Source of the DNA: Paratrimastix pyriformis | Taxonomy: Eukaryota; Preaxostyla; Paratrimastigidae | Reading direction: 5' to 3' | DNA length: 64,000 nucleotides | Assembly: GCA_027972325.1 (NCBI GenBank) | Contig: JAPMOS010000104.1 | Location: forward strand, 77,437 to 141,436 | In this document: piece by piece, positions 5,122 to 26,159 of the stretch | Layout of the letters: every line of letters starts with the position of its first letter | Numbering within the stretch: position 1 is the first letter of the stretch | The notes under the pieces: model-generated | What the model was told of the DNA's origin: nothing | Database searches by the model: none | The model's input: only the letters and a program-made list of their open reading frames with translations | Program-made: the position numbers and the translations under genes

Positions 5122-5152
5122 GATATTTATTTTCTTCTGTAAATATATAACA
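5122..5152. promoter_or_regulatory. Divergent promoter between ATPase and fiber N-termini
   Basis: Only about 30 bp separate the two divergent ATG codons. The ATPase side reads TATATAGAAACA before its ATG, and the fiber side reads AAATATATAACA before its ATG. The same divergent pair is present in E2 (45573-45627), so this block was preserved as a unit through the rearrangement. Confidence 0.6.
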
Positions 5153-5330: not shown

Positions 5331-5863
5331 GATCTATATCTACAGTAAACATGTGGATGACCCTAATGATGTATATGTGAAGTTGATAGAATATCTTGAA
5401 GATGTTCAAGCCAACGCGAGAGAGCAACTTGAAGAGCCTGATTTAGAGATGGTATATTATGGAAATAAGCTTGATGACGTGATCCCAGTTGAAGAGCTCC
5501 CATACGAATCCAGTGATATTTGATGATTTCATGAATGAACCCAAACAGAAACAGGCTATAATGACAGAATACTTTACATCAGGCCGACATAAACAAGCAT
5601 CAGTGATATATTTGGCACAATACTTCTATAATATTCCAACACAAATCAGAGCTAACACAGGGTATTTCCTCATATTTAAGATGACAAAAAGAGATATTAA
5701 TTGTTTGAACTTATTAATTTGTGAGCCAAAAGAACGAATACAAGCATTATATAATGTAGCGACGGCCCAGAAATTTAACTTTTTGATGATTGACTTGGTC
5801 ACTACGTTTGAAAAGTTGAAATATCGTCAAAATTTTGATGGCATATTAGAAATGGACCAATAA
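5331..5863 (+). pseudogene. Genome-packaging ATPase, C-terminal half (frameshifted)
   Basis: From 5331 one frame encodes IYIYSKHVDD and continues to about 5520. The next frame (5489-5863) holds the Walker B-like VIFDDF and the following TSGRHK...YLAQY segment, as in the E2 ATPase. A one-base shift near 5500 separates them. The Walker A half lies inverted at 4931-5121. The C-terminus ends with a KYRQNFD motif that is also found in E2. This is part of the packaging motor that would load DNA into capsids. Confidence 0.85.
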
Positions 5864-5924
5864 TTATAGTCATGGAACAAAAATTCAGTGAGATCAAAAA
5901 ATAATATCTTGTGTAAATATATAG

Positions 5925-7190
5925 ATGAGTGATTTACGAAAACCAATCTTTAAAAAGTTATCAAAGAAGGAACTGCTTCAGTTGATGAATCAGACAAAGA
6001 ATGCCAAACAAAAAGCACAACGTCATGCAATCACACAACAAATTGATGATGCAAAAGAAGATATGAAAACGAAACGGAAAGAGGAAATTGAAAACAAACG
6101 TCAATTGCAAAAGGCAAAGACATATCTAAATTTGACTGATAATGACTTGCTTAACGTAGATGCAGTGAATTATGATGAATTGATTGAGCTTGCAAAACAA
6201 AACCCAGTCATATTCAATGATATTATTAAGAACAAGCAGTTTGCGGCTATATCAAAAGCGATGGACAAATATACGAAGGATATTGAGAGAGATGGTCGAA
6301 TTATAAAAGAGCAGGATAGAATTATCGAAAAAACAATTGAAGAAGAGGCCATTAAAGGTCCGATTGCAGTTGCTACCATACCTGCACCAGTGACACCTGA
6401 ACAAATAGACAAGAGAAGGGAATATATTCATACGAAATTGAAAGATACTCAGAAAGAGAAACACGATCTTATTGCGAATCAAGATCATGTGTTAAAGGAA
6501 TTTGTTCTCGCACATTATGGCGATGTATTCAAGGCTGATGGGACGCCGGACTACGGTAAGACATATAAACGGAATGGTGAATTACAAGAACAAGGGTATT
6601 TGCCTCCGTCATATAACTTTACCGTCAAGAATATATCCAGCATATTCGCTGATCGTATATCGGCGTCGATTCGCGCAAAGCAGGCAGCGATCGAAGTATC
6701 GAAAGCTATTAAAGAACCCCCTAACATGGAGGAACATAAAGAACCGAAAGAAAAAATTCCACCTCCGCCACCACCTCCGCCACCACCTCCGCCACCACCT
6801 CCGCCACCACCTCCGACCCCTGGTAAAAAAAGAGGGAAGAATCAAAAGTATAAACAGAAAGGAAAAGGTAGCGAAATCTTCCGCTTCTCTCCAGAATTAC
6901 AACGTCGATTACATGTTCTCATTGGTGAATCAGGAGCAGGAAATACATCACCTGAACTCATGAAAGAAGTAAAAGTCATATTGAAGAATTACAATAAGAA
7001 AGGAATGTTACAAGGTCCGAAAGAAGTGAAAGACAGACTAAAAGTAGCCGTTCTAAAATATAAGAAGGGAGACCAATCAAAACAGTTGAAAGGACAGATC
7101 TATGATTATATTGATTATTTATTGAAACATAAAGTGATCACGAAATGGAAATACAATCGGTATGTGAAAGCCTTTAATTTGATTCATTAA
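5925..7190 (+). CDS. Proline-tract, coiled-coil protein of unknown function (421 aa)
   Basis: The start follows the box AAATATATAG directly. The N-terminal 180 residues are highly charged and predicted by eye to form coiled coils (many K, E and Q). A run of about 20 prolines at residues 281-300 is encoded by repeated CCACCTCCG units. The C-terminal 120 residues are basic and end in a YDYIDYLLKHKVITK-like helix-rich segment that resembles the C-terminus of the 120-residue protein at 8152. It lies between ATPase and penton on the capsid-gene strand, so a structural or scaffold role is plausible but unproven. No E2 counterpart is present. No known family recognised. Confidence 0.8.
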   Translation: MSDLRKPIFKKLSKKELLQLMNQTKNAKQKAQRHAITQQIDDAKEDMKTKRKEEIENKRQLQKAKTYLNLTDNDLLNVDAVNYDELIELAKQNPVIFNDIIKNKQFAAISKAMDKYTKDIERDGRIIKEQDRIIEKTIEEEAIKGPIAVATIPAPVTPEQIDKRREYIHTKLKDTQKEKHDLIANQDHVLKEFVLAHYGDVFKADGTPDYGKTYKRNGELQEQGYLPPSYNFTVKNISSIFADRISASIRAKQAAIEVSKAIKEPPNMEEHKEPKEKIPPPPPPPPPPPPPPPPPPPTPGKKRGKNQKYKQKGKGSEIFRFSPELQRRLHVLIGESGAGNTSPELMKEVKVILKNYNKKGMLQGPKEVKDRLKVAVLKYKKGDQSKQLKGQIYDYIDYLLKHKVITKWKYNRYVKAFNLIH

Positions 7191-7222
7191 ATTAATATCT
7201 GATATATAATATATAGAAAACA

Positions 7223-8095
7223 ATGGCAGTCGCAATTCCATTATATATAAATTCAGAACGTCGAACAAGAGGGTCAAATAGTGATTTCATGATTCAGTAT
7301 AACATGAATCCGATTACTTTCAATGAGGACAAACGGTATTCAATCAAGCTAGTTCACGCCACAATATGGAATACAATCAAAAACATCACCCAATCGAAAC
7401 ACAATAATAAGTTTCAAATCAATGATGGTTTTGAATGGTTTACTTTCACATTTCCAGATGGATGTTACAACTTGAATGATATGAATGCAGCGTTATATAA
7501 TCATTTCAGTGAGAGCAATCAGTTAGAAATCGATAATACGACAGGCAATACGGTGAGCCCGATCACATTTTCAGGAGTGGAGGCCACAGCGAAATGCACA
7601 TTAATCTTACGATTAGGATGGGAGGTTTCATTCGCAGATACGGATGAAGTGAATAATTTGGCAGGTGTGTTGGGTTTTGAGAAGCATGTATATAGTGCCA
7701 AAATTGAATCAACCAAACTATTTATTTCGATAGATGCTCCGAATAAGATTGATATTACGAATTATGATGACATTTTAATACATTGTTCACTAGTTGGGTA
7801 TTCATATTATAACGGTCAGGATTCAGATATATTACATGCATTCCAGTTCGATGTGCCACCCAATTCACAGTGTAATGTGGAACCAAAGAATCCAATAGCA
7901 TGCACATTGAATACGACCAGAATTAGTGAGATATCAGTCAGGATCACAGATCAAAATAATAATGTCATTAACGATTTTGACGATCCAATTATAATGCTTT
8001 TCCAGATAGAAGAGGTCAATGAGGGGACAAACATATTGGCCAATTTAAAACAGATCATACAGGAAGCAGTATCAGAGGCATTAAAGAAGGCATAG
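7223..8095 (+). CDS. Minor capsid protein, penton-like
   Basis: The 290-residue protein opens with LYINSERRTRGSNSDF and ends with an ISVRITDQNNNVINDFDDPI segment. This layout, a short N-terminal strand with IN/DS and N-S-DF motifs and a C-terminal D-NN-D...P-I strand, is typical of the single jelly-roll penton protein of Polintons and related viruses, which forms the capsid vertices. The E2 homologue (42750-43562) shares both ends and the WNTIKNI motif. A TATATAGA box ends ten bases before the ATG. It sits in a plus-strand run of virion genes (penton, 120 aa, 216 aa, capsid, basic protein, protease) with short intergenic gaps. Confidence 0.82.
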   Translation: MAVAIPLYINSERRTRGSNSDFMIQYNMNPITFNEDKRYSIKLVHATIWNTIKNITQSKHNNKFQINDGFEWFTFTFPDGCYNLNDMNAALYNHFSESNQLEIDNTTGNTVSPITFSGVEATAKCTLILRLGWEVSFADTDEVNNLAGVLGFEKHVYSAKIESTKLFISIDAPNKIDITNYDDILIHCSLVGYSYYNGQDSDILHAFQFDVPPNSQCNVEPKNPIACTLNTTRISEISVRITDQNNNVINDFDDPIIMLFQIEEVNEGTNILANLKQIIQEAVSEALKKA

Positions 8096-8151
8096 AAATC
8101 GGAAATCATTAGGAAAATATTTTAATATCTAATTATATAGTATATTAGAAT

Positions 8152-8514
8152 ATGAGTGATACTTCTGAAGATGATAATATATCTACCACACCACCAGTTG
8201 CAGTGGATTCTGATGAGTCCATTGATATTGATCAAATGGCGACGGAAATACTCAAGGCAAAGAAGAATGCCAAAAGACGAGACAGACGTAAAGTGATCAG
8301 ACAAACAAAACCAAAACCGCCACATGCGATACCACAAGATGATAATGTTGATGAATTATGTGATCAAATTGACGACTTAGAGAAGAAAATTATAGCAGAC
8401 CCAAATGACATAGGAAGCAGACAGAAATATAAGAGTATTGCCAGATATATGTTATCACAACATTATATCCAAGAGCCGATCTATGAAAAGATGATACAAA
8501 TAGCAAAAGTATAA
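8152..8514 (+). CDS. Small conserved virion-cluster protein (120 aa)
   Basis: An acidic N-terminus (DTSEDDN, DSDESIDID) is followed by a very basic middle (KNAKRRDRRK) and a helical C-terminus with DPNDIGSRQKYKS. E2 has a shorter homologue (42478-42750) with NPNDLQSRKKLKS, in the same place between penton and the amphipathic protein. Its conserved position among capsid genes suggests a virion or assembly role. No family recognised. The ATG follows a TATATAGTATATTAGA box. Confidence 0.75.
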   Translation: MSDTSEDDNISTTPPVAVDSDESIDIDQMATEILKAKKNAKRRDRRKVIRQTKPKPPHAIPQDDNVDELCDQIDDLEKKIIADPNDIGSRQKYKSIARYMLSQHYIQEPIYEKMIQIAKV

Positions 8515-8546
8515 AATAATATCTCCCGTAGTAATATAGATACAAA

Positions 8547-9197
8547 ATGTTTAGAAGCCGCCAAGGAACATACTATAAACCGTTAACCTACACTGAACTC
8601 ATGAGAAGTTCGCAATTCATGAGACATCAGGTGCCGTTATATGTGTATACATCATTAATGAAAGGGAATATTCGAGGAACAGATCAAATATACATACGTG
8701 GAGATGGTATTATGGATTATGTAAGGAAGTTTTGGAATTGGTTTGCACCGAGATCAGGGAAAATCATAGAGAGTGCCAAAGAACTCTTACCTGGAGCGAT
8801 AGACCTTGGAAAGAAAGCCTATGATGCATATAAGACGAAGGATGCGGAAAAGAAAGAAATATTACCCGCACAGACAGTGGAATTCACATCGAAAACATTA
8901 CAAGAAGTCGGAAAGTTGATTCGTCATGACAGAGATATTCGTAAACAACAGAAAGATCTTGCCAATATTCGTCGTCAAGAGATAGCGAAAGAACAGATGG
9001 ATTTATCAAGAGAAAAGACAGCTGAGAAACTTGATAACATGGAACGAGTTAGAGATGCCGTCACCAAACAAGAAGTAGAACAAGCATCAGACGGTAAGGC
9101 ATCATTGAAGGTTGGGACAGGATCGGGAATAGCACGAATGATAAGACAAAGGTATAACCGGAAACGGAAGGCGGGAGGTGGATTTAGAGAATTTTAA
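8547..9197 (+). CDS. Putative internal virion protein with amphipathic helix (216 aa)
   Basis: Residues 50-90 (DGIMDYVRKFWNWFAPRSGK onward) form a probable amphipathic or hydrophobic helix preceded by glycine. This is reminiscent, by pattern only, of membrane-active internal capsid proteins such as adenovirus pVI. The rest is a long charged coiled coil and a basic tail ending GGGFREF. The E2 homologue (41749-42433) keeps KNVWNWFKPRSE and a basic C-terminus ending GLKEF. It lies immediately upstream of the capsid gene in both elements. The function is inferred from location and shape, not homology. Confidence 0.7.
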   Translation: MFRSRQGTYYKPLTYTELMRSSQFMRHQVPLYVYTSLMKGNIRGTDQIYIRGDGIMDYVRKFWNWFAPRSGKIIESAKELLPGAIDLGKKAYDAYKTKDAEKKEILPAQTVEFTSKTLQEVGKLIRHDRDIRKQQKDLANIRRQEIAKEQMDLSREKTAEKLDNMERVRDAVTKQEVEQASDGKASLKVGTGSGIARMIRQRYNRKRKAGGGFREF

Positions 9198-9239
9198 GAA
9201 CAAAATATTTAGTTGGGTGTAGAATTAATTATTTTGTCC

Positions 9240-9258
9240 GGCATATATATATAGAATA
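9240..9258 (+). promoter_or_regulatory. TATATAGA-type promoter of the capsid gene
   Basis: The stretch CATATATATATAGAATA directly precedes the ATG at 9259. It is a clear example of a box repeated before most E1 and E2 genes, within about 20 bp of the start codon. Such close spacing implies very short 5' leaders. Confidence 0.55.
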
Positions 9259-10698
9259 ATGGAAACAAAAGTCATAAATGATCTTATTACACCAGAGCCT
9301 TTAGATTATGGTTACATAATGTCTCGTGAAGTGAAATCAGATAATAGCACAATTCGAAACACTGTTCTTGAGATTTCATGCAATGGTGATAATGAACGAC
9401 AACGATTACGAGATGGTTCATCCACGGCCGCTGAATACAAATATACTCCATCAGAAGATGGGTCACGACCTGATTGGGGTTCGTTAGAATGTGGCATGAC
9501 CCTCGAGATATCAGCTACTGCGAACTTTAATCCGGAACATATAAATTTTACTAATGGAGGTCCAATCCGTATCTTTGACAAACTGATTCTTGGTATTAAT
9601 GGACTGGAGACGACAATCGATAAATATGGTCTTGGTGCTTCGATGTTAAACACATTATCTACTTCAAAAGAAGTCTTAGTTGACGGACAAGGGATGACTG
9701 GGTTCTATCCCGTTGCAACTACTGCAGGTGCATTCGGCGATCGTGCTGATTACAACGCTCAAGAGCGATTCAAAGTGTTTATGATGAACAATGATACTGT
9801 TGATGGTAATCCTGCTACATCTCATAATCATACAGTATATGTCAGATTTCCCTTACCAGTCCCTCAACTGAATTCAACTGATGTATATCGCCCAAATACT
9901 GAGGTGACATTCAAATTCTTCAGAGCGAAAACACATGAATTATTTACTACAGCAGCTACCTTTACTGCGGATGAGATCCCAACAGTGAATGTTGCTGATA
10001 TGAAATTATATGTGAAACTCATTACACCAAACCCAGAACTAGGAATGATCCTCGACCAGCAATACCTAAAATCGAATGTATACCAATATGAACGATTTAA
10101 CTGCAATACTGTGACAGTGGCCATACCAACAGGCAATTTCACATATCCGATATATGATGGTGCCAGCCGTCCAGCAAAAATATTCATTGGATTCCAGAAA
10201 CCCACGGTGAATGATGTACTGGCGAACACAACCGCTCACCCTGATCCCTCATTATTTGAGCCATCCAAGATCACAAAGATATATTTAGAAGTAAATGGTT
10301 CAAAGAATATTCCATATCTCAACCAGCGCGAACTTGGATTCCAGGCAGAGAATTTTGGTCAGGCATATACTGATCTCATGCGATGCACTAAGTTCTATGA
10401 CAATAAGTCTGTATCGTCAATCGTATCTCGATCTCTGTTCAAAAACGGCTATACAATTTTCGCATTTGACCTTCATGAAAATATTAAAGATTTACCAGAG
10501 CTCAATGTAACTAAAACGGCAATAAAATTAAAAGTTTCAAGAGCAAATGTTATTAATGCTGATATTGCTGCTCATGATGCTGTCCCTATGATTCCTGCGG
10601 ATCTGACCTTAAATATGGTCTTCTTAATTGTTTGGGAATGTGCAGCCGTTGCCACTGGTGCGACTCGTATATATGAGGAAGTCTTTGGTAAGAATTAA
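9259..10698 (+). CDS. Major capsid protein, double jelly-roll type
   Basis: The 479-residue product has the length and all-beta character of the Polinton/adintovirus hexon-like capsid protein. It is the largest structural gene and lies after penton and before the basic protein and protease. The E2 counterpart (40318-41666) shares the layout, including an FIGFQ/IAFQP strand, a LMRCTKF/LMKCTKF motif, YTIFAF/YPIFAF and LPELN. E1-E2 identity is low, perhaps 30% by eye. The ATG is preceded by TATATATATAGAATA. The gene is intact. Its product would trimerise into the pseudo-hexagonal capsomers of the shell. Confidence 0.85.
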   Translation: METKVINDLITPEPLDYGYIMSREVKSDNSTIRNTVLEISCNGDNERQRLRDGSSTAAEYKYTPSEDGSRPDWGSLECGMTLEISATANFNPEHINFTNGGPIRIFDKLILGINGLETTIDKYGLGASMLNTLSTSKEVLVDGQGMTGFYPVATTAGAFGDRADYNAQERFKVFMMNNDTVDGNPATSHNHTVYVRFPLPVPQLNSTDVYRPNTEVTFKFFRAKTHELFTTAATFTADEIPTVNVADMKLYVKLITPNPELGMILDQQYLKSNVYQYERFNCNTVTVAIPTGNFTYPIYDGASRPAKIFIGFQKPTVNDVLANTTAHPDPSLFEPSKITKIYLEVNGSKNIPYLNQRELGFQAENFGQAYTDLMRCTKFYDNKSVSSIVSRSLFKNGYTIFAFDLHENIKDLPELNVTKTAIKLKVSRANVINADIAAHDAVPMIPADLTLNMVFLIVWECAAVATGATRIYEEVFGKN

Positions 10699-10737
10699 AT
10701 GATTATATTTATTTTCTCTTCCAAGAATATATAAGAA

Positions 10738-10899
10738 TGCCACAAAGAAAATCCAAAACAACTCATCGTAAAACAACTCATCGCAAATCTCGAGGTGGTG
10801 CCGTATCAAAACGTGTGATTGCCTCAATTGTGAAACGTGTGTTACATCCAGGTGGTGGAATGTTCCTTCCTGGGACTATGCGAACTACAATGCGCTAAA
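10738..10899 (+). CDS. Very basic 53-residue protein, putative DNA-condensing core protein
   Basis: A reading frame from ATG 10738 to TAA 10899 encodes 53 residues rich in K, R, H and T, with a repeated KTTHRK motif at the N-terminus and a GGGMFLPGTMR C-terminal motif. A homologue in E2 (40267-40123, minus, one frameshift) keeps GLMLPGT and a final MR. Position after the capsid gene and before the protease, plus composition, suggest a core protein comparable in role to adenovirus mu/pVII. That is inference. The box ATATATAAGA precedes the ATG. Confidence 0.7.
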
Positions 10900-10922
10900 T
10901 AAATATATGATTGTATTATATA

Positions 10923-11408
10923 ATGAACTATAATCATATATTGAAGATTCATCCTTTACTTGATATTGAAATCACACAAGTTCTAAGTGCGTATACACCA
11001 TTTCTTGGATGTTTCTCGCGTGATGAACTCAAAAAGCTTCCACCATTAAAGAAGGGTGAAAGTATTGTAATCAATATGAACAAATCAAATGAAAGAGGAT
11101 CACATTGGGTATGTGCATTTAATGGTGATGAATACTGTGAATACTTTGATAGCTTCGGATTACTTCCTCCTCCTGAAGTCCGAGATTATTTATATCGTTC
11201 TCGTAAGACATGTATCTATTCCACATTTCAAATCCAAAATATCTTTTCTGTCACTTGTGGATACTTCTGTATGGTTTACATTCTATCTCGTGCTCGTGAT
11301 CGTGCACCTATTGATGTCATTATGATGTTCAAAGTAAGTGCAGAACCAAACGAACAGAAGATGAATGACCGGATATGTATTAAAATACTAAAAAAACTGT
11401 TAAGATGA
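10923..11408 (+). CDS. Adenain-like cysteine protease (maturation protease)
   Basis: The product is about 161 residues. Catalytic elements of the adenain/Ulp1 clan are visible in order: His in GSHWVC (residue 61), Asp in YFDSFG (76), Gln in FQIQN (about 105) and Cys in TCGYFC (112). In Polintons and adenoviruses this enzyme cleaves capsid and core precursors during virion maturation. I chose ATG 10923, preceded by TATTATATA, over the upstream non-ATG extension. It is the last gene of the plus-strand virion cluster. E2 lacks a counterpart at the equivalent site. Confidence 0.9.
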   Translation: MNYNHILKIHPLLDIEITQVLSAYTPFLGCFSRDELKKLPPLKKGESIVINMNKSNERGSHWVCAFNGDEYCEYFDSFGLLPPPEVRDYLYRSRKTCIYSTFQIQNIFSVTCGYFCMVYILSRARDRAPIDVIMMFKVSAEPNEQKMNDRICIKILKKLLR

Positions 11409-11436
11409 GATATTTAATTAATGATAAATCAAATAT

Positions 11437-11640
11437 CTAATCGATGTGAAGTGGCCCCAACTCAATGCTCCCAAATGAATCATTGATATAAACAATTTTT
11501 ATCGGATCACCTGATCTTACACTTTTCTTTTGACATATCGTTGCTTCAAAGTATTTATTCTCATGTGATAGAACAAGTGAAAGTAATGCATCTAATACGG
11601 TGCGATTGATGATCACTACATTGTCTTGGTCCGTTTGCAT
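11437..11640 (-). CDS. Small unknown protein (67 aa)
   Basis: This short frame is preceded by the box TATATAGAAATCA right before its ATG, the best argument that it is a real gene. The product is about 67 residues with alternating hydrophobic and charged positions and no recognisable motif. It lies between the convergent protease and the polymerase gene, downstream of the latter on the same strand. Confidence 0.55.
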   Translation of the reverse strand: MQTDQDNVVIINRTVLDALLSLVLSHENKYFEATICQKKSVRSGDPIKIVYINDSFGSIELGPLHID

Positions 11641-11684
11641 TGATTTCTATATAGTATTATAACATTTTCTTTTTAAATACTTTT

Positions 11685-13496
11685 TTAATTGAAATCGAAT
11701 AAGGTGACATTATGGATTTCAGCAGATTTGACTCCTTCAAATTTCAAGTCACCGATCTGATTACCAATTTCTTCATAATTGCCTTCTTCAGTTATGGCAA
11801 ATCCATCTGTATGTAACCAGACAACTGATGATAAATTGGTCTTTTGTAAGATCTGTAACATCTTATGGCGTCCGTAATGTAATAGGAATGGCATGATACG
11901 AGCATAGTCAGTCGTGAAAGAACGGTTAATCTTATGGAATCGGACATAATGGCTATCACGAACAGGTTTCATGGTGTCAATGAATGATGAATCATCTAAA
12001 TGGGTTTCGTTTTCTTTATCAAGAACCATATTATATGAATTATGTTGCGATAAGGCACCCCATAAACTATTTAAGATTTGTTTCGCTAAATGATTGCCAC
12101 CGACTTTAAACGGATAGAGGTAATCAACAAATTCTTTGAACATTTTGGATCCTTGAAAGACTTTATCACGGGAATAATATAAAAAGTTGGGTTGACCATC
12201 TTCTATGATTGTTGTCTTTAATCCCAGTTTACGGGCATCAAGGATATCAATCAAACAATAATAGTTCTCTGAATTGAACTTGAATGTGATGGCGTTTGTT
12301 GGGTTTCCATTATCTTCAATCTCACAGTGATATATACCAAATTGTAATCGTTCAGTTGAACTATTGAACTGATCATTAGTGAGAGTCATGAATTCACCTC
12401 TCCGAATCGGAAAGATCGGATTGGGTTTCCTCATAATGGATGGATACATCGAAACAAAGTCATATTTATAAACTTGTCCTGTGTATCCACCTTTTTTACA
12501 ATACATTAACGCACTATATGATGCACCATTGATGAAACGTGCTTCGTCTTCTTGAATGGGTTCCGGACAGATGAGTTTCGTGAAATGATAAAACAATTTG
12601 AGTGCAGTCATAGGAATCGTTTGATTAAATGGATTCACTAAGCCTTCTGTCTTTTCCTTAAGTTCCGTAGCCTCACGAACAAACCGATCATAATATTCTT
12701 TCAGATCTTCATCATTCTCGATATATTTTCCCTTAATCATAATATGTGTCTTGTTCATTTCAGATTTAAACTCTGTCATGGTGAAGTTCTTATATTGTTC
12801 TCCATCATACCCCCGATATCCATCTTCAATATCTCGGGTAATCATGATTTTACGATCTGAGAAGGAACTACGTGTATAATGTTTATTATCAACAAATAAT
12901 GTATAATGATTATTTGAAAGCACTAAGTGAAGTTCATTCTTTGAATCATATTGTGATTGATATGTTGCATCTCCATTGACGGTGATACGAATATTCAGTT
13001 TCTTTTCAATCATTGGCATCTTGTCAAGTGGGACCATATCTTCACGAGGGACTTTCAGAAAACGTTTAAATGTTGATGGATAGTGCCAAGGTAACTCAGG
13101 AAGCACTTGTTTTAGTAAGTTATATAGACAATCATTATGTGAATCTGCTCCACCTCGATTGGGTGCTTGACTTGATTGGAACGAATATACTATGAATTTC
13201 TTGAAATGGTCAACGTTATCACCGATTCCATCATAACTCCCCGCTGATGGGAGTGCCACTGGTTGTCCATATTCAGTCATTTTCCCTGAAACCCATCCAC
13301 CGGGATATAAAAATGAGATCATCATCCATCCATGATATCCTTGATCGACGAATGCATGTGACATCTTTTGACAATACTTCTTTATGATCGCCACTTCTGT
13401 TCCAGGAATGTTGGCTGTAAACTTATATGACCAAACCGCATGATTGCGATAGATCAGTTTTAACTTCTTCCGTTCGAATAACTTGATGGTATTCAT
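11685..13496 (-). CDS. polB: Protein-primed type B DNA polymerase (short form)
   Basis: The polymerase domain (about residues 300-603) shows motif A YKYDFVSMYPS (Asp 346), motif B AKQILNSLWG (Lys 472) and motif C HTDGF (Asp 564). The product is only 603 residues, well short of usual Polinton polymerases, and I see no 3'-5' exonuclease motifs. The N-terminal 300 residues instead contain SHNDCLYNLL (Cys 123) and a downstream SNNHYTLF (His 197), a Cys...His pattern reminiscent of OTU-like cysteine proteases; this is a tentative reading. The enzyme would copy the linear genome from protein-primed ends. TATATAGA abuts its ATG, and the conserved non-coding block 13500-13930 lies directly upstream. 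Confidence 0.88.
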   Translation of the reverse strand: MNTIKLFERKKLKLIYRNHAVWSYKFTANIPGTEVAIIKKYCQKMSHAFVDQGYHGWMMISFLYPGGWVSGKMTEYGQPVALPSAGSYDGIGDNVDHFKKFIVYSFQSSQAPNRGGADSHNDCLYNLLKQVLPELPWHYPSTFKRFLKVPREDMVPLDKMPMIEKKLNIRITVNGDATYQSQYDSKNELHLVLSNNHYTLFVDNKHYTRSSFSDRKIMITRDIEDGYRGYDGEQYKNFTMTEFKSEMNKTHIMIKGKYIENDEDLKEYYDRFVREATELKEKTEGLVNPFNQTIPMTALKLFYHFTKLICPEPIQEDEARFINGASYSALMYCKKGGYTGQVYKYDFVSMYPSIMRKPNPIFPIRRGEFMTLTNDQFNSSTERLQFGIYHCEIEDNGNPTNAITFKFNSENYYCLIDILDARKLGLKTTIIEDGQPNFLYYSRDKVFQGSKMFKEFVDYLYPFKVGGNHLAKQILNSLWGALSQHNSYNMVLDKENETHLDDSSFIDTMKPVRDSHYVRFHKINRSFTTDYARIMPFLLHYGRHKMLQILQKTNLSSVVWLHTDGFAITEEGNYEEIGNQIGDLKFEGVKSAEIHNVTLFDFN

Positions 13497-13515
13497 TCTA
13501 TATAATATACTATAT
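13497..13515 (-). promoter_or_regulatory. Promoter box of the DNA polymerase gene
   Basis: Read on the minus strand, TATATTATATAGA directly precedes the polymerase ATG. In E2 the fragment ends at the same kind of box (46985-46997), after which foreign sequence begins where the polymerase ATG should be. Confidence 0.55.
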
Positions 13516-13930
13516 ACTTTTTTTCTTTAAGTAGTTTTTTTGATTATTTCCATTAATTTCCGTTTCTGAAGTGGTAAAACACTTAGTTAGAAGTATTCTG
13601 ATGGGTTTCCATCAAAAAATCATGTATGTAAATTTTGACATAAGTTTGACATGTTGACATGTTTTGACAGGCGCTCATTCATTAATGACCGGCAACCTTA
13701 GATTTCATTCCAGCCTTGTTACATATGTTACATAGTTCATGAAACGTTATAAACATTTATAAATATTTATAAATTCTGAAAAGTTATTCCAAAAATGAGA
13801 TTTTCCTATAGTAATTTCCCTGAAAAATGCCAAATGGTGAGATAGCTCATTAACTATGCGGAATTGAGCTAAGAACCAACATTACACACATGATCTACAC
13901 ATAAAAACCATTCAGAATATGTTATCATAA
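13500..13930. other. Conserved non-coding block (candidate replication origin or control region), E1 copy
   Basis: No reading frame is supported here, yet long stretches match the reverse complement of E2 46530-46997 in the same order. The shared parts include a GATGG...CCATC hairpin (13600-13613), a cluster of TTTGACAT-like direct repeats (13633-13671), CAACCTTAG, an ATGAAACGTTATAAACATTT segment (from 13739) running into AT-rich TTTATAAATATTTA, TTATTCCAAAAAT, TTTTCCTATAG, and TAGCTCA-TAACTA-CGGAATTGA. Capsid genes of the same elements are far more diverged. Hairpin, iteron-like repeats and AT-rich stretch together resemble an origin or a long regulatory region; the function is not established. 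Confidence 0.8.
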
Positions 13931-13974
13931 TGATCACAAGTTCATATAATATTGTAATTCAATGCTATATGAGC

Positions 13975-14196
13975 TTATTGCTGTTCAAATTCAAAAATTG
14001 TCTTATTTTTCTGATGTTTCTGTGATTTCTCGTGATGAACTAGATTAGATCTCATCACATCCGTGTTACAATATTCACAATGAATACGTTCTTTGAGATA
14101 TGCAAGGTGTTTCTGTTTGAAGGCTGCATCTTCATGGTATCGTCGTTTGAAATAGGAAACTTGATTACCAATATCATCGGCTATTAAATGTTCCAT
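13975..14196 (-). CDS. C2H2-type zinc-finger protein (73 aa)
   Basis: The small protein contains one finger, C-x2-C (CEYC) followed by H-x5-H (HHEKSQKH), of the U1/matrin-like type. Basic residues follow the finger. Related single fingers occur in E1 at 20497-20650 and 25741-26158, suggesting an expanded family. TATAATATACA precedes the ATG. It probably binds nucleic acid; the target is unknown. Confidence 0.75.
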   Translation of the reverse strand: MEHLIADDIGNQVSYFKRRYHEDAAFKQKHLAYLKERIHCEYCNTDVMRSNLVHHEKSQKHQKNKTIFEFEQQ

Positions 14197-14237
14197 TGTA
14201 TATTATAATATTATATATTATTTTTCTTTAAATTAAT

Positions 14238-15008
14238 TTAATTTTCCTCGAAAAACTTATTTAATTCAAGGTTCTCTCTGATGTCCAACGTATGAAGATC
14301 ATTTCTTATGGACAATAACCGATTATCAATATCGTTCAGTATTGTTAATATTCTACCAAATACCGTTTTTAGGACTAACCGATCTTGCTTTGAATTCACG
14401 ATATCATTATCAGTGAGGAGATAAGGGATACGAATTCGATTATTATGGAGTGCAGCCGCGACATGTCGTATGAATGTTATTCCTAAATCATATTTCCTAA
14501 CTAGACTCGCATCGTCCTTCACATAAGACAATTTTAACGAATCGGAAAACTTGTTAAAAAGGGAACTCCATTGAATAATAATTTCCCCATTCGTATCGTC
14601 GAGCTGACTCTTATTAAGTCTTTCAAGATGAATCTTCGTATAGTCTTTGAGCTGAGAATAACCTTCGTAATTTATCGTTTTTAGAAATGTCAATGACTGT
14701 GCGGCATCGTCAACCATTGTCTGATATTGCTTATCAAAATCCTGAATTTTTGACTTGACCTTTTGCAAAGACCTCATAATTGTCTTGAAACAATATGGAG
14801 TCGCATTACAGTAATTTTCGTCCGACATAATTGTTTTCAATTTGGATATAGAGCGTATTGGTTCAAGTCTGGTCATTACGTCATGAATCGTCTTATGGTA
14901 TTCTCGTAGCGATTCCAGTTCTAACTCTTCGTTTCGTATGAATATTTTGAGTTCAGTTTCACACGATTCTTTTAAACTGTCAGTCATTTTTTCATATAAT
15001 GATTTCAT
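14238..15008 (-). CDS. Helical protein of unknown function (256 aa)
   Basis: The product is a soluble, largely helical protein with charged N-terminal heptads (residues 1-60) and more leucine- and isoleucine-rich helices later. It has no signal peptide, membrane segment or known motif. The start is supported by AATATATAGA immediately before the ATG. It is the middle of three minus-strand genes between the conserved non-coding block and the integrase. Its style resembles neighbours at 15051, 22302 and 23144, but I cannot show homology. No function assigned. Confidence 0.7.
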   Translation of the reverse strand: MKSLYEKMTDSLKESCETELKIFIRNEELELESLREYHKTIHDVMTRLEPIRSISKLKTIMSDENYCNATPYCFKTIMRSLQKVKSKIQDFDKQYQTMVDDAAQSLTFLKTINYEGYSQLKDYTKIHLERLNKSQLDDTNGEIIIQWSSLFNKFSDSLKLSYVKDDASLVRKYDLGITFIRHVAAALHNNRIRIPYLLTDNDIVNSKQDRLVLKTVFGRILTILNDIDNRLLSIRNDLHTLDIRENLELNKFFEEN

Positions 15009-15050
15009 TCTATATATTATAAATCTATATAATTTATTTTTAAATTGTTT

Positions 15051-15917
15051 TTAATTCATATGATATTTTACGTAATCGTGATTCGATCTACAATAGTGCT
15101 GTAAAAATATCTCACGATTTTCATGCCTGAATATCGGATGTATGTGCAGCTCCCCCCGATGACGTTTATGTCTGTGATCTGGATAACGAAAGCTCTTACG
15201 TGTCGCAAAATTATCAGCATCCATATCAAAATCAACATCTTTGAATTTATTAAAATTCAATGTGTTTGACGAGAACATTTGATGAAAATATGAATGGAAG
15301 AGATTTAGATGACCGATATAATCTCTTCTTGAGAATAAATATTGATCATTTATCGTGGACACATTAGGATCATCTTCCTTACATCGTAATACTTTATGTC
15401 TCGTAATTTGAATCACATCATTGTCTGTTTTTATAGTAGCAAAACGTATTGTAGTTATCAGACAGATTGATGCAGGAATGAGCTCATTTGAGATCAATGT
15501 TATGAGGTTTGATAGATAAACGATCCTGGAAATAATTTCATTAACAGGAGAAGCATCTATATTTGAAACGACAAAACGTTGAAAGTTTCTATGAAGATCT
15601 ATGAGATGATCCTTTCTCCATAGAAACATCATGGCTTCATTCGCTAAGTAATCGTATATTAGATCCATCATATCATTATGACATATGATATCACAAACGT
15701 GTTTCGTCTTCCCGATTAATGTTGACGAATCGGGGTAAAAACTGGGAGTTGTTCTCTTAAACCATTCATCGTAGAAGTTATATATTTTGTCCATTTCATC
15801 GATTTCATTTTGATAGACTGTCATGAGTTGGTCTTTCAGACGATAATACCTCTGACATAATCCTTGGAACAATTCCAATGCAATCTGTTTTGATTCAGAT
15901 AATGGTTTGAAATTCAT
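15051..15917 (-). CDS. Helical protein of unknown function (288 aa)
   Basis: The product is helical with several hydrophobic stretches (around residues 105-160), though none is a convincing membrane anchor. The C-terminus is rich in histidine and arginine (DHRHKRHRGELHIH near residue 250). The ATG follows AATATATAGA and is divergent from the integrase across about 60 bp. No family recognised. Like the 14238 gene it is uninterrupted, which argues that it was maintained until recently. Confidence 0.7.
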   Translation of the reverse strand: MNFKPLSESKQIALELFQGLCQRYYRLKDQLMTVYQNEIDEMDKIYNFYDEWFKRTTPSFYPDSSTLIGKTKHVCDIICHNDMMDLIYDYLANEAMMFLWRKDHLIDLHRNFQRFVVSNIDASPVNEIISRIVYLSNLITLISNELIPASICLITTIRFATIKTDNDVIQITRHKVLRCKEDDPNVSTINDQYLFSRRDYIGHLNLFHSYFHQMFSSNTLNFNKFKDVDFDMDADNFATRKSFRYPDHRHKRHRGELHIHPIFRHENREIFLQHYCRSNHDYVKYHMN

Positions 15918-15979
15918 TCTATATATTATAAATCTATATATTATCTTTCTAAATAACTAATTTCTTGTGTAATTAATAT
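15918..15979. promoter_or_regulatory. Divergent promoter region, unknown gene / integrase
   Basis: The 62-bp gap is AT-rich. It contains AATATATAGA on the minus side, abutting the 15917 start, and TTAATAT abutting the integrase ATG on the plus side. A copy of AAATCTATATA lies in the middle. Confidence 0.45.
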
Positions 15980-17083
15980 ATGGATTGGTCAAAATTACTA
16001 GGTCCAAAACAAACTAAAAATACTGTTCTCAATCAATTACTATCTATTCCACAACGTGATTCTAAAAAGACTGCTTCTCGATTCTATCTTGTTGATCCTC
16101 ATATTATTAACCAAGCTGATCTCCTGTATCTGCCACATGATCATGATTTTAAATATCTCTTACTTGTTGTCGATATCGGAAGTCGTCAATGTGATGCTGA
16201 ACCTCTGAAATCTAAAGATGCAACAGCTGTTCGTGATGCCTTTATTAAAATATATAAACGGAAAATACTTGATATCCCTCTCAAAATTGAAGTCGATGAT
16301 GGTAGTGAATTCAAAGGTCCTTGTCTGAAATTCTTTAAAGATCATAAGGTTTTGGTTCGTGTCGGAAAGGTTAATCGACATCGTATGCAGGGTATCGTCG
16401 AAAGATATAATCAGATGATTGCTTATGCATTATTCAAACGAATGTCGGCACAGGAGTTATTAACAGGAAAAACATCTCGTGAATGGATCAAAGTATTGCC
16501 TTCATTAATAGAATTTATTAATCAACGTGCTGAGAAACGTGTTCGTAAGTTAAGACAACTCTATCGTCCTGGAGAATTAAATGATCCCATTCAGCAACAA
16601 CCAAATTTCGAATACATCTATCCACTTGGTTCTTCTGTCCGTGTTGAACTGGATGAACCTATTGATATTGTCACTCGAAAACGGTTACCTGGTCGATTTC
16701 GTTCAACTGATATACGTTTTGATCCTCAAGTCAGAACAATCGTTGATCTTGTCATTCGTCCTGATAGCCCTGTCTTATATCTGCTCAATGATCCAGAAAA
16801 CAAGGCAGAATATGAAAATGTAGGATATTCACGTAATCAGTTACAACTTGTCAAGAATAATGAATCATATCATCATGGAAAAGATCTTCAAATCCCAAAA
16901 GAAAATGATCAATATATCATCGACAAGATCATCTCCAAACATATTATCAAGAAAAAGATTTTTTACAAAGTCTCTTGGGTGGGTTACCCTGATGAAAAAG
17001 ACTTCACTTTAGAACCTAAAGCTCAATTAATCAAGGATGTGCCTCAATTAATAGAACAGTTTGAAAAACAACATAAAAAATAA
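15980..17083 (+). CDS. DDE integrase with C-terminal chromodomain
   Basis: The 367-residue product is a retroviral-type (rve) integrase. The acidic triad is visible: Asp in QADLLYLP (47), Asp in VDDGSEF (106) and Glu in GIVERYN (141), with about 34 residues between the last two. The C-terminal 60 residues (KVSWVGYPDEKDFTLEP) form a chromodomain, as in Polinton and chromovirus integrases, which may direct insertion to marked chromatin. An N-terminal zinc-binding HHCC motif is not evident. The enzyme explains the 5-bp CAACC duplication around E1. The gene is intact and its 3' end converges with the helicase gene, 7 bp away. Confidence 0.93.
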   Translation: MDWSKLLGPKQTKNTVLNQLLSIPQRDSKKTASRFYLVDPHIINQADLLYLPHDHDFKYLLLVVDIGSRQCDAEPLKSKDATAVRDAFIKIYKRKILDIPLKIEVDDGSEFKGPCLKFFKDHKVLVRVGKVNRHRMQGIVERYNQMIAYALFKRMSAQELLTGKTSREWIKVLPSLIEFINQRAEKRVRKLRQLYRPGELNDPIQQQPNFEYIYPLGSSVRVELDEPIDIVTRKRLPGRFRSTDIRFDPQVRTIVDLVIRPDSPVLYLLNDPENKAEYENVGYSRNQLQLVKNNESYHHGKDLQIPKENDQYIIDKIISKHIIKKKIFYKVSWVGYPDEKDFTLEPKAQLIKDVPQLIEQFEKQHKK

Positions 17084-17089
17084 GATCAT

Positions 17090-18868
17090 TTACTGCTTCT
17101 TGTGATGTGATTTTTTCTTATTATTTAAGAGCTTCACCAGATGGGATTCATCATCCGATTCCTTCTTGCCTTCAATCTCTTCTGATCCTATGATATCTTT
17201 AAAATCTGGCTCTGGTTCTGGCTCCTTCACTTTAATAATTCTTTTCTTTACTAACTTCTTGGGCTCTTCTTTCGGTTGTTCTTTCGGCTCATCAATGAAT
17301 ATTCCTGCATCAAGATCATCATGGTTTTCTGTTTTCTTTTCTATTTTCTTCACTTTCACATTAATCGATTGTTGATTCATCAACCTGTTGTATGTCTCAC
17401 ATCCACTGAAATCATCTGCCTCGCTAATAAACCGTTTCTTAATATAGAACTCAAAGATCTTCTCTGCTGATGCTGTCACTCTTACTTGATTACCTGTGCC
17501 ACGATGAACAATATCCATATCACGAAGTTTTGTTGATGTATCACGTATTGATGGAATTGTAATCTTCTTTCCAAAATACCGACTTGTCTTATCTGAAGAT
17601 TTGTTATTCAACCACTCTGTAAGTCCATCACATACACTTTTTAATGATTCATCGATTCCAGCATCTTTGCTGAGGTATCGCTCCTTGATGTATTGGTAAA
17701 TGTAAGCCAGATTGTCACAAACCATTTCTGTTCTTGTCTTAGTGGCTGGATACATACGAGAACCATATTGATTATAGGCTTGCATCTCTGGTGTTTTCAT
17801 TTCCTGTTTACAGTATGCATAGAAACATTTCTCGACTTCCTTTTCTCGGAGAATGTCTGTGAACCGATTGAAGAAGGTCATATTTCCATTTAATTCATCT
17901 GAGACATCGAGACAAACCCATCGACGATCATCTTCTTTCAATTGGAACATATAATCATTCACAGCAATGATGAAATTGAGATAGTTTGTTATATCAACTG
18001 GTGTCTGATTCTTCTTATGTAATGCAATCTTATCATCTGTTGCAAATTTCTTGATTTGATCATAGAACATGGAAAAGCCCTCAGGACTCTGATGTAATTC
18101 TTCTAAGATAATTAAGGTCTTGTTTTCAAATTCACCATTGAACTCTCCCGTCAGTGATGATGTCTTGCTCGACCGATAACATGTGTTTCCTATAATGCGA
18201 TCTAAAAAGTCAAGAATCACACCTTTACCTGACCCTTGTTTGGACTTTAAGAAGAGTAATGAACGGTTCTTATTACCATTCAGTAAATTGATGATCCATT
18301 TCCGTGTATATGCATATACAGGTTCATCACCTGAACACCAAATACGTTTAATGAATTCCCAGATTTCGGTCACCTTATTTTTGGTCTCTTCTGAGAATTC
18401 ATCATACTGTGTATGCATGTTCACATATCTGAAGCCACAGAATGTATTGATATATCTGAATTTCACTGCTTCATCATCCTCTGATGATAATTCGAAAGTT
18501 AATGGCTGATTGGGAATAAAAGCAATATGATTCAACACATTCATCTCTTCCATGAACCATTTGAAGGGTTTGAATTTCTTTGCTTCTTTCCTGTTGTCTT
18601 CACATAGCACCATGAATTCATCTGATGTTTTGATATAATTCTGTTTGATCTCTGATTGATCCTTCTCAACAACTTTCACTCCAGTTGCTGTTATATTGTA
18701 GAAGTAGATCCCTTCTGTATCGTAACACTTCGCAAAGTAGGTCATAATGTAACGTTTCATTTCATCGACCTTGTGGTCATTGGCTAATTGGACGAGAGTG
18801 TTACGATCAAATGGCTTGATGGTGTTTCCAAATAGCATTTCATTTTCGATGTTGATTTGAGATTCCAT
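17090..18868 (-). CDS. Superfamily 3 helicase (D5-like)
   Basis: The 592-residue product has the AAA+ core of SF3 helicases: Walker A SKQGSGKG (about residues 209-216), Walker B LIILEEL (252-258), motif C with Asn in IAVND (301-305), and an Arg-rich DDRRW at 313-317. No archaeo-eukaryotic primase motifs are obvious in the N-terminal 200 residues. The C-terminus (about 510-592) is a low-complexity charged tail with PEPEPE and lysine runs. It would unwind the element DNA during replication. It is intact. TATATATTAATAGA precedes the ATG. SF3 helicases occur in many Polinton-like viruses and virophages but not in all Polintons. Confidence 0.9.
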   Translation of the reverse strand: MESQINIENEMLFGNTIKPFDRNTLVQLANDHKVDEMKRYIMTYFAKCYDTEGIYFYNITATGVKVVEKDQSEIKQNYIKTSDEFMVLCEDNRKEAKKFKPFKWFMEEMNVLNHIAFIPNQPLTFELSSEDDEAVKFRYINTFCGFRYVNMHTQYDEFSEETKNKVTEIWEFIKRIWCSGDEPVYAYTRKWIINLLNGNKNRSLLFLKSKQGSGKGVILDFLDRIIGNTCYRSSKTSSLTGEFNGEFENKTLIILEELHQSPEGFSMFYDQIKKFATDDKIALHKKNQTPVDITNYLNFIIAVNDYMFQLKEDDRRWVCLDVSDELNGNMTFFNRFTDILREKEVEKCFYAYCKQEMKTPEMQAYNQYGSRMYPATKTRTEMVCDNLAYIYQYIKERYLSKDAGIDESLKSVCDGLTEWLNNKSSDKTSRYFGKKITIPSIRDTSTKLRDMDIVHRGTGNQVRVTASAEKIFEFYIKKRFISEADDFSGCETYNRLMNQQSINVKVKKIEKKTENHDDLDAGIFIDEPKEQPKEEPKKLVKKRIIKVKEPEPEPDFKDIIGSEEIEGKKESDDESHLVKLLNNKKKSHHKKQ

Positions 18869-18968
18869 TCTATTAATATATATACTATAATATTTTTCTT
18901 TATATTGTTTTTACTATATTTATTTATTCACGCCTGTAATTATTTTCGCATTCATTTATATAGAAAAC

Positions 18969-19824
18969 ATGTCTAAATCCATAAAGATAATTACTGAAGA
19001 TCCTGTTAATGTTCCTGATCCTCCGAAAATGCTTCAAGAAATTCATTTAGATGCTCCATCGCCAATACTTACTCATGTTAAAAATTACATTTGCCGATAA
19101 ATACGAAGAGTATATCAATGCTGATCTCGCCAATACTTATCCCATCTTTAATCAGCCTGTCATTCTCCGGTCTTCTCGACATTATATCAAATACATCTCT
19201 CCTATTCTTCGAGGTGAAGAACTTACTTTCACTGATGATTGCGACACTATGCAGGAAATGGGAGCTCTTCTCAATGAAATTCATTATTATGGTATTGAAC
19301 TAACCTCTTATCAAATTCAACAATTGGCCGACTCTTCTGGCTTATCCAAATTAATTAATCAAGTCAAGATATATATTGGCTCTCACGATGCCAAATGTTT
19401 CAATCGATCTTATGTCTCCCGTCTCAAACAATTTGAATCAGTATGGAACATTTACATCGGTGTCCTCTCTGAGAAGTATAAAGATGATAACTTCAAAAAA
19501 ATATCATTTACTGTCATCATGGACACCATCCGTAATAGCAACTTCTTGAGCTTAATCAATATGAATGTTATCTATCACAATATCATCTTTGAATTCTTAA
19601 CATATCTTAAAGAAGTGGTTATCGACCACAAGGAATCTTCCCTCTCTGATATATCACTTAACCTTTCAATGTCTTTGCTTGATAATGGTCTCCTGTCCTC
19701 TGTCACTGGTGTTGCAACAACTGTCACTAATCTCATTCAGAACTCGGCGAAACTTGACAAATCTACTCTCTTACAACAATTAGGATCAATCACCGAAGTT
19801 TCTAAATTACTCACTCAGAAATAA
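18969..19824 (+). pseudogene. Unknown protein, about 280 aa, one frameshift
   Basis: An ATG at 18969 follows TTATATAGAAAAC and opens a frame that stops at about 19100. The following frame (usable from 19051) runs to 19824. The two overlap at an A5 run (19079-19083), so a single-base indel most likely splits one gene. The longer part is helical with no known motif. It is divergent from the helicase. I treat it as one gene because the promoter box lies only before 18969. Confidence 0.65.
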
Positions 19825-19863
19825 TATCCCTATGAATTAATTTCTTAAGTTATTAATATAAGA

Positions 19864-20450
19864 ATGCCAATAATTTCTATGCGTAATGGAGCTCAAGCGG
19901 AAGTAATCATAATGCAAGGAACTTACAAAGACACACCACAAAATCGTAAGTTACATCGTGTCGGTCAACATTATGATAAGAAGGTATTTAAGATCATTAA
20001 AGGACCCACTCCTACGGGGAGATCATATCGAAAGAAACGCGGTAAAGGTCTCTCTGATTATGATCTATCTGATGTCATTCTCAATTCACAACCCATGACT
20101 CGTATCGATGATGAAGGTAATAGCTATGTTCAATTAGTCAGACAAGACGGGTCAGTTGATGAAATCCCCGAAGATCGATATAATCGGTTCATCAAATCAA
20201 AAGTTGACGACGCAATAAAACCTAAGAAAAGAACGTATTATAAGCGTCCAATTAAAGATACCATGATGCAAGATGGTGATGGTGTGGGTGCCGAAATTGT
20301 TGGGGCACTTGGTGAACTCCCGAATACTCTGAAAAAGTTCTGAAAGATCTCCAACCTGATCGTCCTCATATTGGTTTAACTAAAGGGTGGCGAAATCCCT
20401 TGACTGGCCAGTATATGGTCGGTAATAAAGTCGAGAATAACCATTACTAA
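19864..20450 (+). pseudogene. Conserved unknown virion-cluster protein (homologue in E2), frameshifted near the end
   Basis: The first 159 codons run to 20343. The conserved C-terminus (GLTKGWRNPLTGQYMVGNK) continues in another frame to TAA at 20450, across a GAAAAAG run near 20336. The E2 gene 39492-40080 matches in the middle (DDEGNS, QLV, DGSV-EIPEDRY, KRPIKDTMM, GDG-GAEIV) and at the end. In E2 it follows the basic protein and capsid on the same strand, which argues for a virion-associated role. No family known to me. ATTAATATAAGA precedes the ATG. Confidence 0.72.
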
Positions 20451-20496
20451 AAGAATGATAAATAATTTATGGCTAATGATAAATTATTTGTCTGTC

Positions 20497-21012
20497 TTAA
20501 TTTTGTTGTTCGTTAATCATGATATCCAATTGTTCTTTCAATGCTTGTTGATGGAATTTCGTTCTGATATGACCTGTTTTACCACCATGTTGATATTGTC
20601 GATGACATACCTCACATGTATCAATATGAGCTTGCCTTTTAATTGTTTCTCACGAAGGGCTGAATTTTTGATAGGCAAGTTTACAATACTTTGTATGTCC
20701 TATTCGTATCTTTGCTCCAGCTATATTATCGTTCAGTGGAGGGTTTTGTTCGAGTTGATAATCACCTTCCAATTTGAACAAGTCTCTTCGTGTGACGGGT
20801 TCTTCTGGGTGAAATATTACATCAATCTTCATCCGATCCCATCCAACTCTTCTCACATATTGATAGAACTTACTATCAGCCTTCACTGATGTGTATTTAT
20901 GTAACGAAAATCGTTTCTCCAATGTTTGGATTGTAGATCCTATGTAATATTGAGTTGGATCTTCAATATCATAGATCTTATAGATGATTCCTGTAGTATA
21001 TGTTGCTTCCAT
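20497..21012 (-). pseudogene. GIY-YIG endonuclease with C-terminal zinc finger, separated by one in-frame stop
   Basis: Residues 1-60 carry the GIY-YIG signature: GIIYKIYD, YYIGSTIQ, and the conserved Arg and His in KRFSLHK. A TGA at 20650 ends the frame after 120 codons. The same frame then continues without break to 20497 and encodes a zinc finger (CEVC ... HIRTKFH). Fusion of GIY-YIG nucleases to zinc fingers is common in large viruses, so the TGA may be a point mutation or a consensus error. Alternatively the nuclease ends naturally and the finger is a separate remnant. The enzyme would be a site-specific or repair-type nuclease. Confidence 0.75.
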
Positions 21013-21045
21013 GTTTATAGTATATAATAATATAGTTATATTTCT

Positions 21046-21869
21046 TTAAATAGATTTCTCCATTAATTTATTAAATAATTCTTGTTGTTCACGATTTTTT
21101 TCTTTGGATTTCATCTGAGGAAAATATAAAAGGAACTCATCCAACTTTAGATGCTTTAGTATGTTATGTATTAGAAAGTTATAATTCAGGAAGTTTTGCG
21201 TGTCTGCTTCTTACATTGATTATATCTCGATTGGATCTTATTAAACATCTGTCGTATTTCTTGGATCTGATCTGCCGTAAATTCAGGCAGCTTTCGACTT
21301 GACACTCGTGAAAGAATATAGAATATGTTCTCATTATAGACTGTCAGATTCAATTGTTTCAATATCTTCCTCATCACTTTGTATGTGATATCCGATGATG
21401 CCATCTTCCGAACTTCGATCTCTTTCTGGATTTCTTGAATCACATCATCTGGGACATCACGTTCTGTCTTTCCTTGATAACTATTCAATATCTCATCCAA
21501 ATGATGCATCCTCTTATACATCACTCGCGACTTATACATTGTCCCATCACATGAAGACACCGATGATTCGAATTCTATTGGCTCAGCAAGACCACATGTT
21601 GGACACACATTATATCCATCCGATACGATCTTCTCTGTCCCACATTCACAGAGATTGTTCGGATCTTTGGGCTTATGAAAGAGGTGCTTCAATGGAACAA
21701 TCTTTTCGGGTGTTGGTTTATTCTGCATCATCTTGTCTAACTCATCAAATAGAGCATCATCTGACAGTTCAGAAGATGACGATACTTCCGGGCTAATAGC
21801 CTCATTCAGTTTTTTCAAATATCTATGATACTTTGTTTTCTTAACCATAAATGTTGTCATAATATACAT
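21046..21869 (-). pseudogene. VLTF3-like late transcription factor, frameshifted near the C-terminus
   Basis: The N-terminal third holds a zinc ribbon (CECG ... CPTCG). It is followed by YKRMHHLDEILNSYQGK, DVPDDVIQEI and the helical core typical of the poxvirus-type VLTF3 family of Nucleocytoviricota. The first frame stops at 21186. The characteristic end of the family (a FLNYNF-like stretch, LDEFLLYFP, MKSKEK) lies in another frame down to 21046, so a single indel near 21190 splits the gene. It would act with the host or helper RNA polymerase at late promoters and may be linked to the uniform TATATAGA boxes. It is unusual in a Polinton. ATG choice is uncertain: 21869 or 21860. Confidence 0.85.
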
Positions 21870-21933
21870 AGATATATGGAATTTATTTTTATATAAATTA
21901 ATTTAAAGAATTATATGTTATAATACTATATAT

Positions 21934-22233: not shown

Positions 22234-22301
22234 ATATATTGGTTTTTCTTTATTTGTAAACTATTTAAAGAAAAACATGTTACTATATTATAGATAGAAG
22301 A

Positions 22302-26158: not shown

Positions 26159-26159
26159 T

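Follow-up and report, generated by a model that had tools for sequence, protein, structure and literature searches.

The window analysed here is the whole of a 64,000-nucleotide stretch of one contig of Paratrimastix pyriformis (genome of 56 Mb in 495 contigs), and it holds members of two diverged families of mobile elements, A and B. An earlier note on this DNA, made from the letters alone, had claimed that the two members share a non-coding block upstream of the polymerase gene, under selection as DNA or RNA. The locus raises the question of what keeps such a block alike in two families and what it could do for the elements that carry it.

Two element families and their common block

Self-BLAST of the window and its terminal repeats delimited element 1, which represents family A, at 1455..27035 (about 25.6 kb, no strand assigned). 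Its terminal inverted repeats (1455-1915 and 26575-27035) are 461 bp long and 100% identical, and they are flanked by a 5-bp target duplication, CAACC (1450-1454 and 27036-27040), as is expected of Polinton-like elements. The ORF at 11685..13496 on the minus strand encodes a DNA polymerase of 603 aa, which matched DNA_pol_B_2 of Pfam with an E-value of 5.7e-11 and 42.4 bits (cut-off 25.8), and the enzyme was assigned to the organellar/viral type B. The integrase match (rve, E 6.3e-7) had 30.0 bits, under the cut-off of 32.6; it was counted as an integrase, and a chromodomain above the cut-off was found on the same ORF. The element also encodes a DUF5906 protein and a VLTF3-like protein. A jelly-roll capsid was sought among g5925, g7223, g8547, and g9259, none of which had a Pfam match at E 0.01, and the single-sequence fold of g9259 had a pLDDT of 27.6, which is too low for capsid identification. 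The fibre/ATPase arm of element 1 (1916-5863) is altered in order and orientation compared with the sister copy L039 and with family B.

Immediately upstream of the polymerase ORF, the comparison of ORF upstream regions showed a TATA-rich promoter-like motif (13500..13535, minus strand), and similar motifs precede several other ORFs of element 1. By eye, two kinds of TATA-rich motif can be distinguished beside its start codons (for example, at 14197-14240, 15009-15050, and 18869-18911). One kind, like TTAAAGAAAA, stands before the polymerase, zinc-finger, and DUF5906 ORFs, and the other, with TAATATCT or TTTCTT, before g5925, g7223, g8152, and the integrase ORF.

The block of element 1 occupies 13576..13929 on the plus strand, and its second copy lies on the minus strand of the family B element at 46556..46926. 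The alignment of the two (72.0% identity over 375 columns, E 2.65e-52, self-BLAST) bore out the similarity noticed earlier. The absence of a shared frame was upheld as well: stops occur in every frame of the six copies tested (6-20 per each of six frames), and the longest open stretch is at most 52 codons. The extent first given to the block, 13500-13930, held for 13576-13929 but not for 13500-13575, a promoter-like AT stretch that scarcely aligns between copies (40-55% in 40-bp windows). The longest identical run in the core alignment spans 31 columns, a length reached by 0.16% of 10,000 column shuffles. By our own ORF list, the site of the block is the longest interior non-coding gap of element 1 (478 bp; the next is 327 bp), and when element 1 was compared at high sensitivity with pieces of a family B copy on contig C63, the block was the only strong match that is wholly non-coding. 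One other wholly non-coding match was found between element 1 and the B1 pieces (22267-22380, 114 bp, AT-rich, E 2e-6).

The position of the block differs between the families. In family A, it lies at the junction of the polymerase start and a small zinc-finger-like ORF, its right neighbour (73 aa, 13975..14196, minus strand, C2H2-like pattern recognised by eye). In family B, it is flanked by the 3' end of the ATPase gene and by the start of a g5925 homologue, so that the placement upstream of a polymerase gene is correct for family A only. The family B element is kept in the window in part, over 39029..46997 (no strand assigned), from an inverted-repeat end at 39029 to a truncation at 46998 by a repeat found elsewhere in the window. 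Its A32-type ATPase, in two overlapping ORFs at 45628..46355 on the plus strand, faces the block with its 3' end. Further along the window, a 5.8-kb repeat is present in two copies that are 99% alike (within 47901-59950), and after it comes a tandem array whose period is about 137 bp (59977-62239).

Both element ends were fixed in detail for one family B copy, that on C63 (17862-40027). It has 463-bp repeats that are 100% identical and the duplication AAGGT, and because of the identical repeats and the 5-bp duplication it looks recently inserted. This copy was read except for 659 bp (18341-18999); the other B copies, several of which are near contig ends, were read in part. The genome matches of the family A polymerase (27), PF03175 (44), DUF5906 (20), and the family A integrase (75) include none inside the 11 B copies. 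Such matches are absent on contigs C179, C199, C202, C212, C243, and C382, and on C17, C63, C447, and C7 the matches belong to A elements or to more distant places and not to the B copies (for example, C17:25763, C63:77331, C447:153644, and C447:196373). The Pfam scan of 36 distinct ORFs from the B pieces, which are a part of the B ORFs and include two beyond the C63 element end (one of them a reverse transcriptase), gave no PF03175 polymerase and no rve integrase. Within the sequence read, family B is without the polymerase and integrase expected of Polinton-like elements. It holds a fragment resembling a Dda-like helicase, and it is possible that family B has an unrecognised replicase of its own; a B-specific ORF of 469 aa had no homologue among 4,002 candidates. 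Since family B keeps the block and no polymerase match was found in its copies, the block is not bound to the polymerase gene.

Two further ORFs of family B were observed at locus L035 (C63). The one at 5737-8766 is fibre-like, 1009 aa long, with a Peptidase_S74 match; the other, a g10923 homologue at 4302-4778, may be a maturation protease because of a weak Peptidase_C5 (adenovirus endoprotease) match (E 0.0039, below cut-off). There is also a third, higher-copy family, C (L100 on contig C154, and many other contigs), which has an rve integrase in frames that reach 351 aa, an ORF of 786 aa, and a GIY-YIG protein, and which gave no block match. Its 786-aa ORF matched PF03175 in the genome search, yet Pfam lists only Endonuclease_7 for it. 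A link between g19051 and this ORF was dropped, since it consisted of a single weak BLAST match.

Genome-wide, 25 DNA matches of the block were found, some of them fragments, and the block was seen once per element. The pattern of its AT-rich tract, allowing up to three mismatches, has 18 genome sites, all in blocks, versus one match for the reversed control; by the examined block loci, 7 of the sites were assigned to family A and 11 to family B. Of the 22 copies or fragments of the block, 16 entered alignments A1 and A2. Excluded were L014, which has a 74-bp insertion, L024 and L026, which have a deletion in the core, L010, whose core equals that of W1, and L027 and L028, which are fragments; alignments A3 and A4 and the model R1, which was built from A3, comprise 10 copies. 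At L098 (C438) and L099 (C410), the 5' end of the polymerase is kept and the block is gone, other DNA starting from the equivalents of 13508 and 13506. The copies on C121 and C259 have a broken polymerase and have lost the iteron-like repeats. A joint decay of block and polymerase was dropped as an explanation, because L009 has a truncated polymerase yet a block that is 99% alike.

The block was also searched for in a collection of viral contigs. A 16-base palindrome from it matched in 55 stretches, which we took as chance, and a 22-base core pattern had no match there. The polymerase of element 1 as a single query found no viral contig, and the polymerase alignment found one remote relative. 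With such polymerase results, the block was not traceable beyond the P. pyriformis genome.

Layout of the block and selection on it

The motifs named in the earlier note were found in the same order in both window copies. The palindrome TGATGGGTTTCCATCA (13599..13614, plus strand; second copy at 46888) is followed by an iteron-like cluster of four same-strand TTGACA at 13635..13669 (plus strand, starting at 13635, 13646, 13654, and 13664), with spacings of 11, 8, and 10 bp. It is a regular array of short direct repeats as in iteron-type origins and the sole such cluster in element 1; among 300 simulations of the element by a first-order Markov model, one had at least three same-strand TTGACA within 35 bp. 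The family A copy L014 has a fifth unit. The B copies have two TTGACA 9 bp apart and one 20-21 bp further, which in the window are at 46862, 46853, and 46832, with another at 46959, beyond the BLAST match. The B copies L015 and L021 have an opposite-strand TTGACA pair, 21 bp apart, at their far end, and a model of the iteron half gave a weak opposite-strand match beside the C63 block (16.5 bits, E 0.0015).

To the right of the cluster lie CATTCATTAA (13676 and 46818 in the two window copies) and AACCTTAG (13694 and 46802), and then an AT-rich tract (13742..13780, plus strand), delimited by the copy alignment and the genome pattern search, in which three TATAAA-like units recur every 10 bp or so. 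Its positions 13745-13769 pair with 46758-46734. The TATAAA units begin 76 bp past the last TTGACA and have few changes across the 16 aligned copies; by its sequence, the tract is predicted to unwind, like the AT-rich region near the repeats of an iteron-type origin. At the right edge of the core (13789..13811, plus strand), CCAAAAAT...GATTTTCCTATAG is almost invariant in the 16 aligned copies, GATTTTCCTATAG being at 13799 and 46692. The comparison of copies further showed a right module (13813..13929, plus strand) with CGGAATTGA (13859 and 46618), which also occurs in family B; in five of the nine copies from family A (L012, L013, L014, L024, and L026), other DNA stands in its place.

Selection was examined with fourfold-degenerate sites as the yardstick; in the genes common to A and B, these sites are near saturation. 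Between A and B1, the core is identical at 178/235 positions (76%) versus 52/138 fourfold sites (38%) of four shared genes, namely the ATPase (from L039) and g7223, g19864, and g19051 (from the window), each compared with its B1 copy (Fisher p 4e-13). Within family B (B1-B2, L015 versus L021), the values are 215/240 (90%) versus 93/163 (57%) for the ATPase and the g5925 homologue (p 6e-14). Within family A (the window versus L013, the single A' copy), they are 185/235 (79%) versus 46/90 (51%) for the polymerase (p 2e-6). The contrasts within A and within B indicate that selection preserves the core in either family separately, and that exchange between them is not the whole cause of the likeness. 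Selection on the nucleic acid itself was supported by yardsticks both between and within families, and the RNA half of the original claim was disfavoured. Judging from these sequence comparisons, the block is very probably a cis-acting DNA element under purifying selection at the level of the element.

Candidate roles of the block

The best reading of the layout, which we hold tentatively, is that the block is an initiator-binding internal region for the control of replication, or an origin. A transcriptional control region is a close rival, and both may hold together. In the control regions of small DNA viruses, a replication control site overlaps a promoter. If the block works in this way, an element-encoded DNA-binding protein would assemble on the phased TTGACA repeats and open the adjoining AT-rich TATAAA units, and the block would act as an internal site of replication initiation or control, possibly overlapping a promoter. 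The candidate binder in family A would be the DUF5906 primase-helicase or the product of the adjoining small zinc-finger ORF; family B would depend on a factor provided in trans or on one of its own that went unrecognised. Against an internal origin, long terminal inverted repeats occur in both families and A encodes a polymerase of the viral/protein-primed type, so that replication should start at the ends. The GC skew along element 1 has no switch at the block, which also counts against an origin.

Somewhat less probable, though a serious possibility, is that the block serves transcription, as an enhancer with a TATA array that times the left-hand gene or the whole element. In W1 (family A, polymerase), 103 bp separate the palindrome from the left gene's ATG, and in the seven B copies measured (g5925 homologue) the distance is 101-105 bp, with the same orientation. 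This near-constant distance speaks against a free-floating element and suggests a promoter-linked role at least as well as an origin. Moreover, the AT-rich tract bears TATAAA units, and in both families the block is upstream of the left gene, between co-directional genes. However, the left gene is not the same in A and B. In element 1, g5925 has no block and is separated from the preceding ORF by 61 bp, and family B retains the block with no polymerase match in any of its copies. Besides, many ORFs have their own TATA-rich motif beside the ATG, and the sequence from the ATG to the core scarcely aligns between families.

The replication reading has an extension that we regard as doubtful, namely that B is a satellite of A. 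An A-encoded initiator would drive replication from the block in both families; B would bring the packaging-ATPase and fibre genes without a polymerase or integrase of its own, and the tract pairs A/B1 and A'/B2 would be two helper-satellite specificity classes. The AT-rich tract has two main variants among the 18 genome sites: the A' copy L013 (C477) and the three B2 copies L021-L023 (C243 and C179) have one, and A and B1 have the other. Eight tract sites have the cross-family pattern versus none with the control pattern (two-sided p 0.008), and five of the eight are within 17 columns. As coding controls we used g19051 and g4304, since g19864 has no B2 copy; the cross-family and control patterns numbered 0/12 in g19051 and 17/17 in g4304, where up to 4 and 6 such sites fall within 17 columns. 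With a single A' copy and such coding controls, the cross-family tract variants are suggestive only and serve as a lead. A satellite should be without replication genes and yet recently mobile, and in B no polymerase, integrase, or DUF5906 match was found, although a helicase fragment is present. A helper-satellite relation is possible because B looks recently inserted and its own enzymes were not found. Helper and satellite should also have common termini. A comparison of the A terminal repeat with the B pieces, including the right repeat, gave just a 26-bp match of chance level, and the end sequences differ. We rate the satellite reading low since A and B differ in their terminal repeats.

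It is unlikely that the block is a packaging signal read by the A32/FtsK-type ATPase. This enzyme is present in both families and adjoins the block in B, and the one 9-kb sample of family C, which is without an ATPase match, has no block match either. However, packaging signals of linear protein-primed viruses such as adenovirus are near an end, whereas in element 1, as in the C63 copy, the block is distant from either end, and packaging does not require an AT-rich repeat architecture.

Recent recombinational exchange of DNA between the families, with no function of the block, is a highly improbable source of the similarity. The fibre region is far more alike between A and B than the rest (84% over 955 bp), and the tract variant of A' is that of B2, as described above, but the conservation of the block well above fourfold sites also within each family, and its patchiness with runs of invariant bases, do not fit this explanation. 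The fibre region, which is partly the most alike stretch of element 1 and B, points to an exchange of the fibre module.

Just as improbable is a structured non-coding RNA or a 5' leader element. The strand opposite to that on which the block was first read folds slightly better than shuffles in both window copies (z -1.85, with 4/100 as good, and z -2.07, with 1/100), and consensus folding gave both-sided change in 4/41 of its predicted pairs, one pair changing in 10/16 rows. Yet the other strand had such change in 0/27 predicted pairs, the covariation terms are small (-0.23 and -0.85 kcal/mol), and the folding z-scores range overall from -1.1 to -2.1, with 1/100 shuffles as good in the best case. 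The palindrome, which the earlier note took for a conserved hairpin, has a stem broken without compensation in 4/16 aligned copies (L013 and L021-L023), and Rfam and tRNA searches of the block gave no match. Promoter-like motifs right at the start codons suggest that leaders are short. Little covariation, uncompensated breaks of the palindrome, and modest z-scores led us to consider the block as DNA rather than RNA.

Comparison with known systems

Polintons/Mavericks and Polinton-like viruses are described in parts of the published work on protist genomes as 15-30 kb insertions that have terminal inverted repeats and encode PolB, an rve integrase, a primase-helicase, and a packaging ATPase (PMC10120064, PMC12220804, PMC4028283), many of them without a detectable polymerase gene (PMC10120064). 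Families A and B resemble them in the terminal inverted repeats and the ATPase, and A also in PolB, rve, and the primase-helicase; the descriptions in those parts include no conserved internal non-coding region common to families at different gene positions. In EMALEs, the endogenous virophages of Cafeteria, type-specific promoter motifs are described in the 100 nt upstream of ORFs, as is recombination between element types, in the relevant passages of PMC8547959. The EMALE motifs recur at many genes, whereas the block, with its length of about 350 bp, was seen a single time in each element. The passages of PMC10120064, PMC12220804, PMC8547959, and PMC4028283 that deal with element families, missing polymerases, promoter motifs, and non-coding RNAs describe no internal conserved control region. 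The literature searched held nothing on a polinton packaging signal or on polintons of P. pyriformis, and the titles and opening lines of abstracts on polinton replication origins and intergenic DNA had nothing on this subject. We came across no account of an internal, conserved cis-acting region of Polintons in the literature searched.

If the block starts replication, the assumption that such elements replicate from their ends only would need testing. The recent-looking family B copy on C63, in which no polymerase or integrase was found, raises the question of what moves it, and the block offers a defined 350-bp target for asking what moves family B.

In iteron-type origins and viral upstream control regions, short same-strand repeats with roughly helical spacing lie near an AT-rich repeat array. 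The present elements differ from iteron-type origins in being linear with terminal repeats, in having an initiator that is only a candidate, and in the lack of replication genes found in B. The block likewise combines repeats with an AT-rich array, and in family A it adjoins the polymerase gene.
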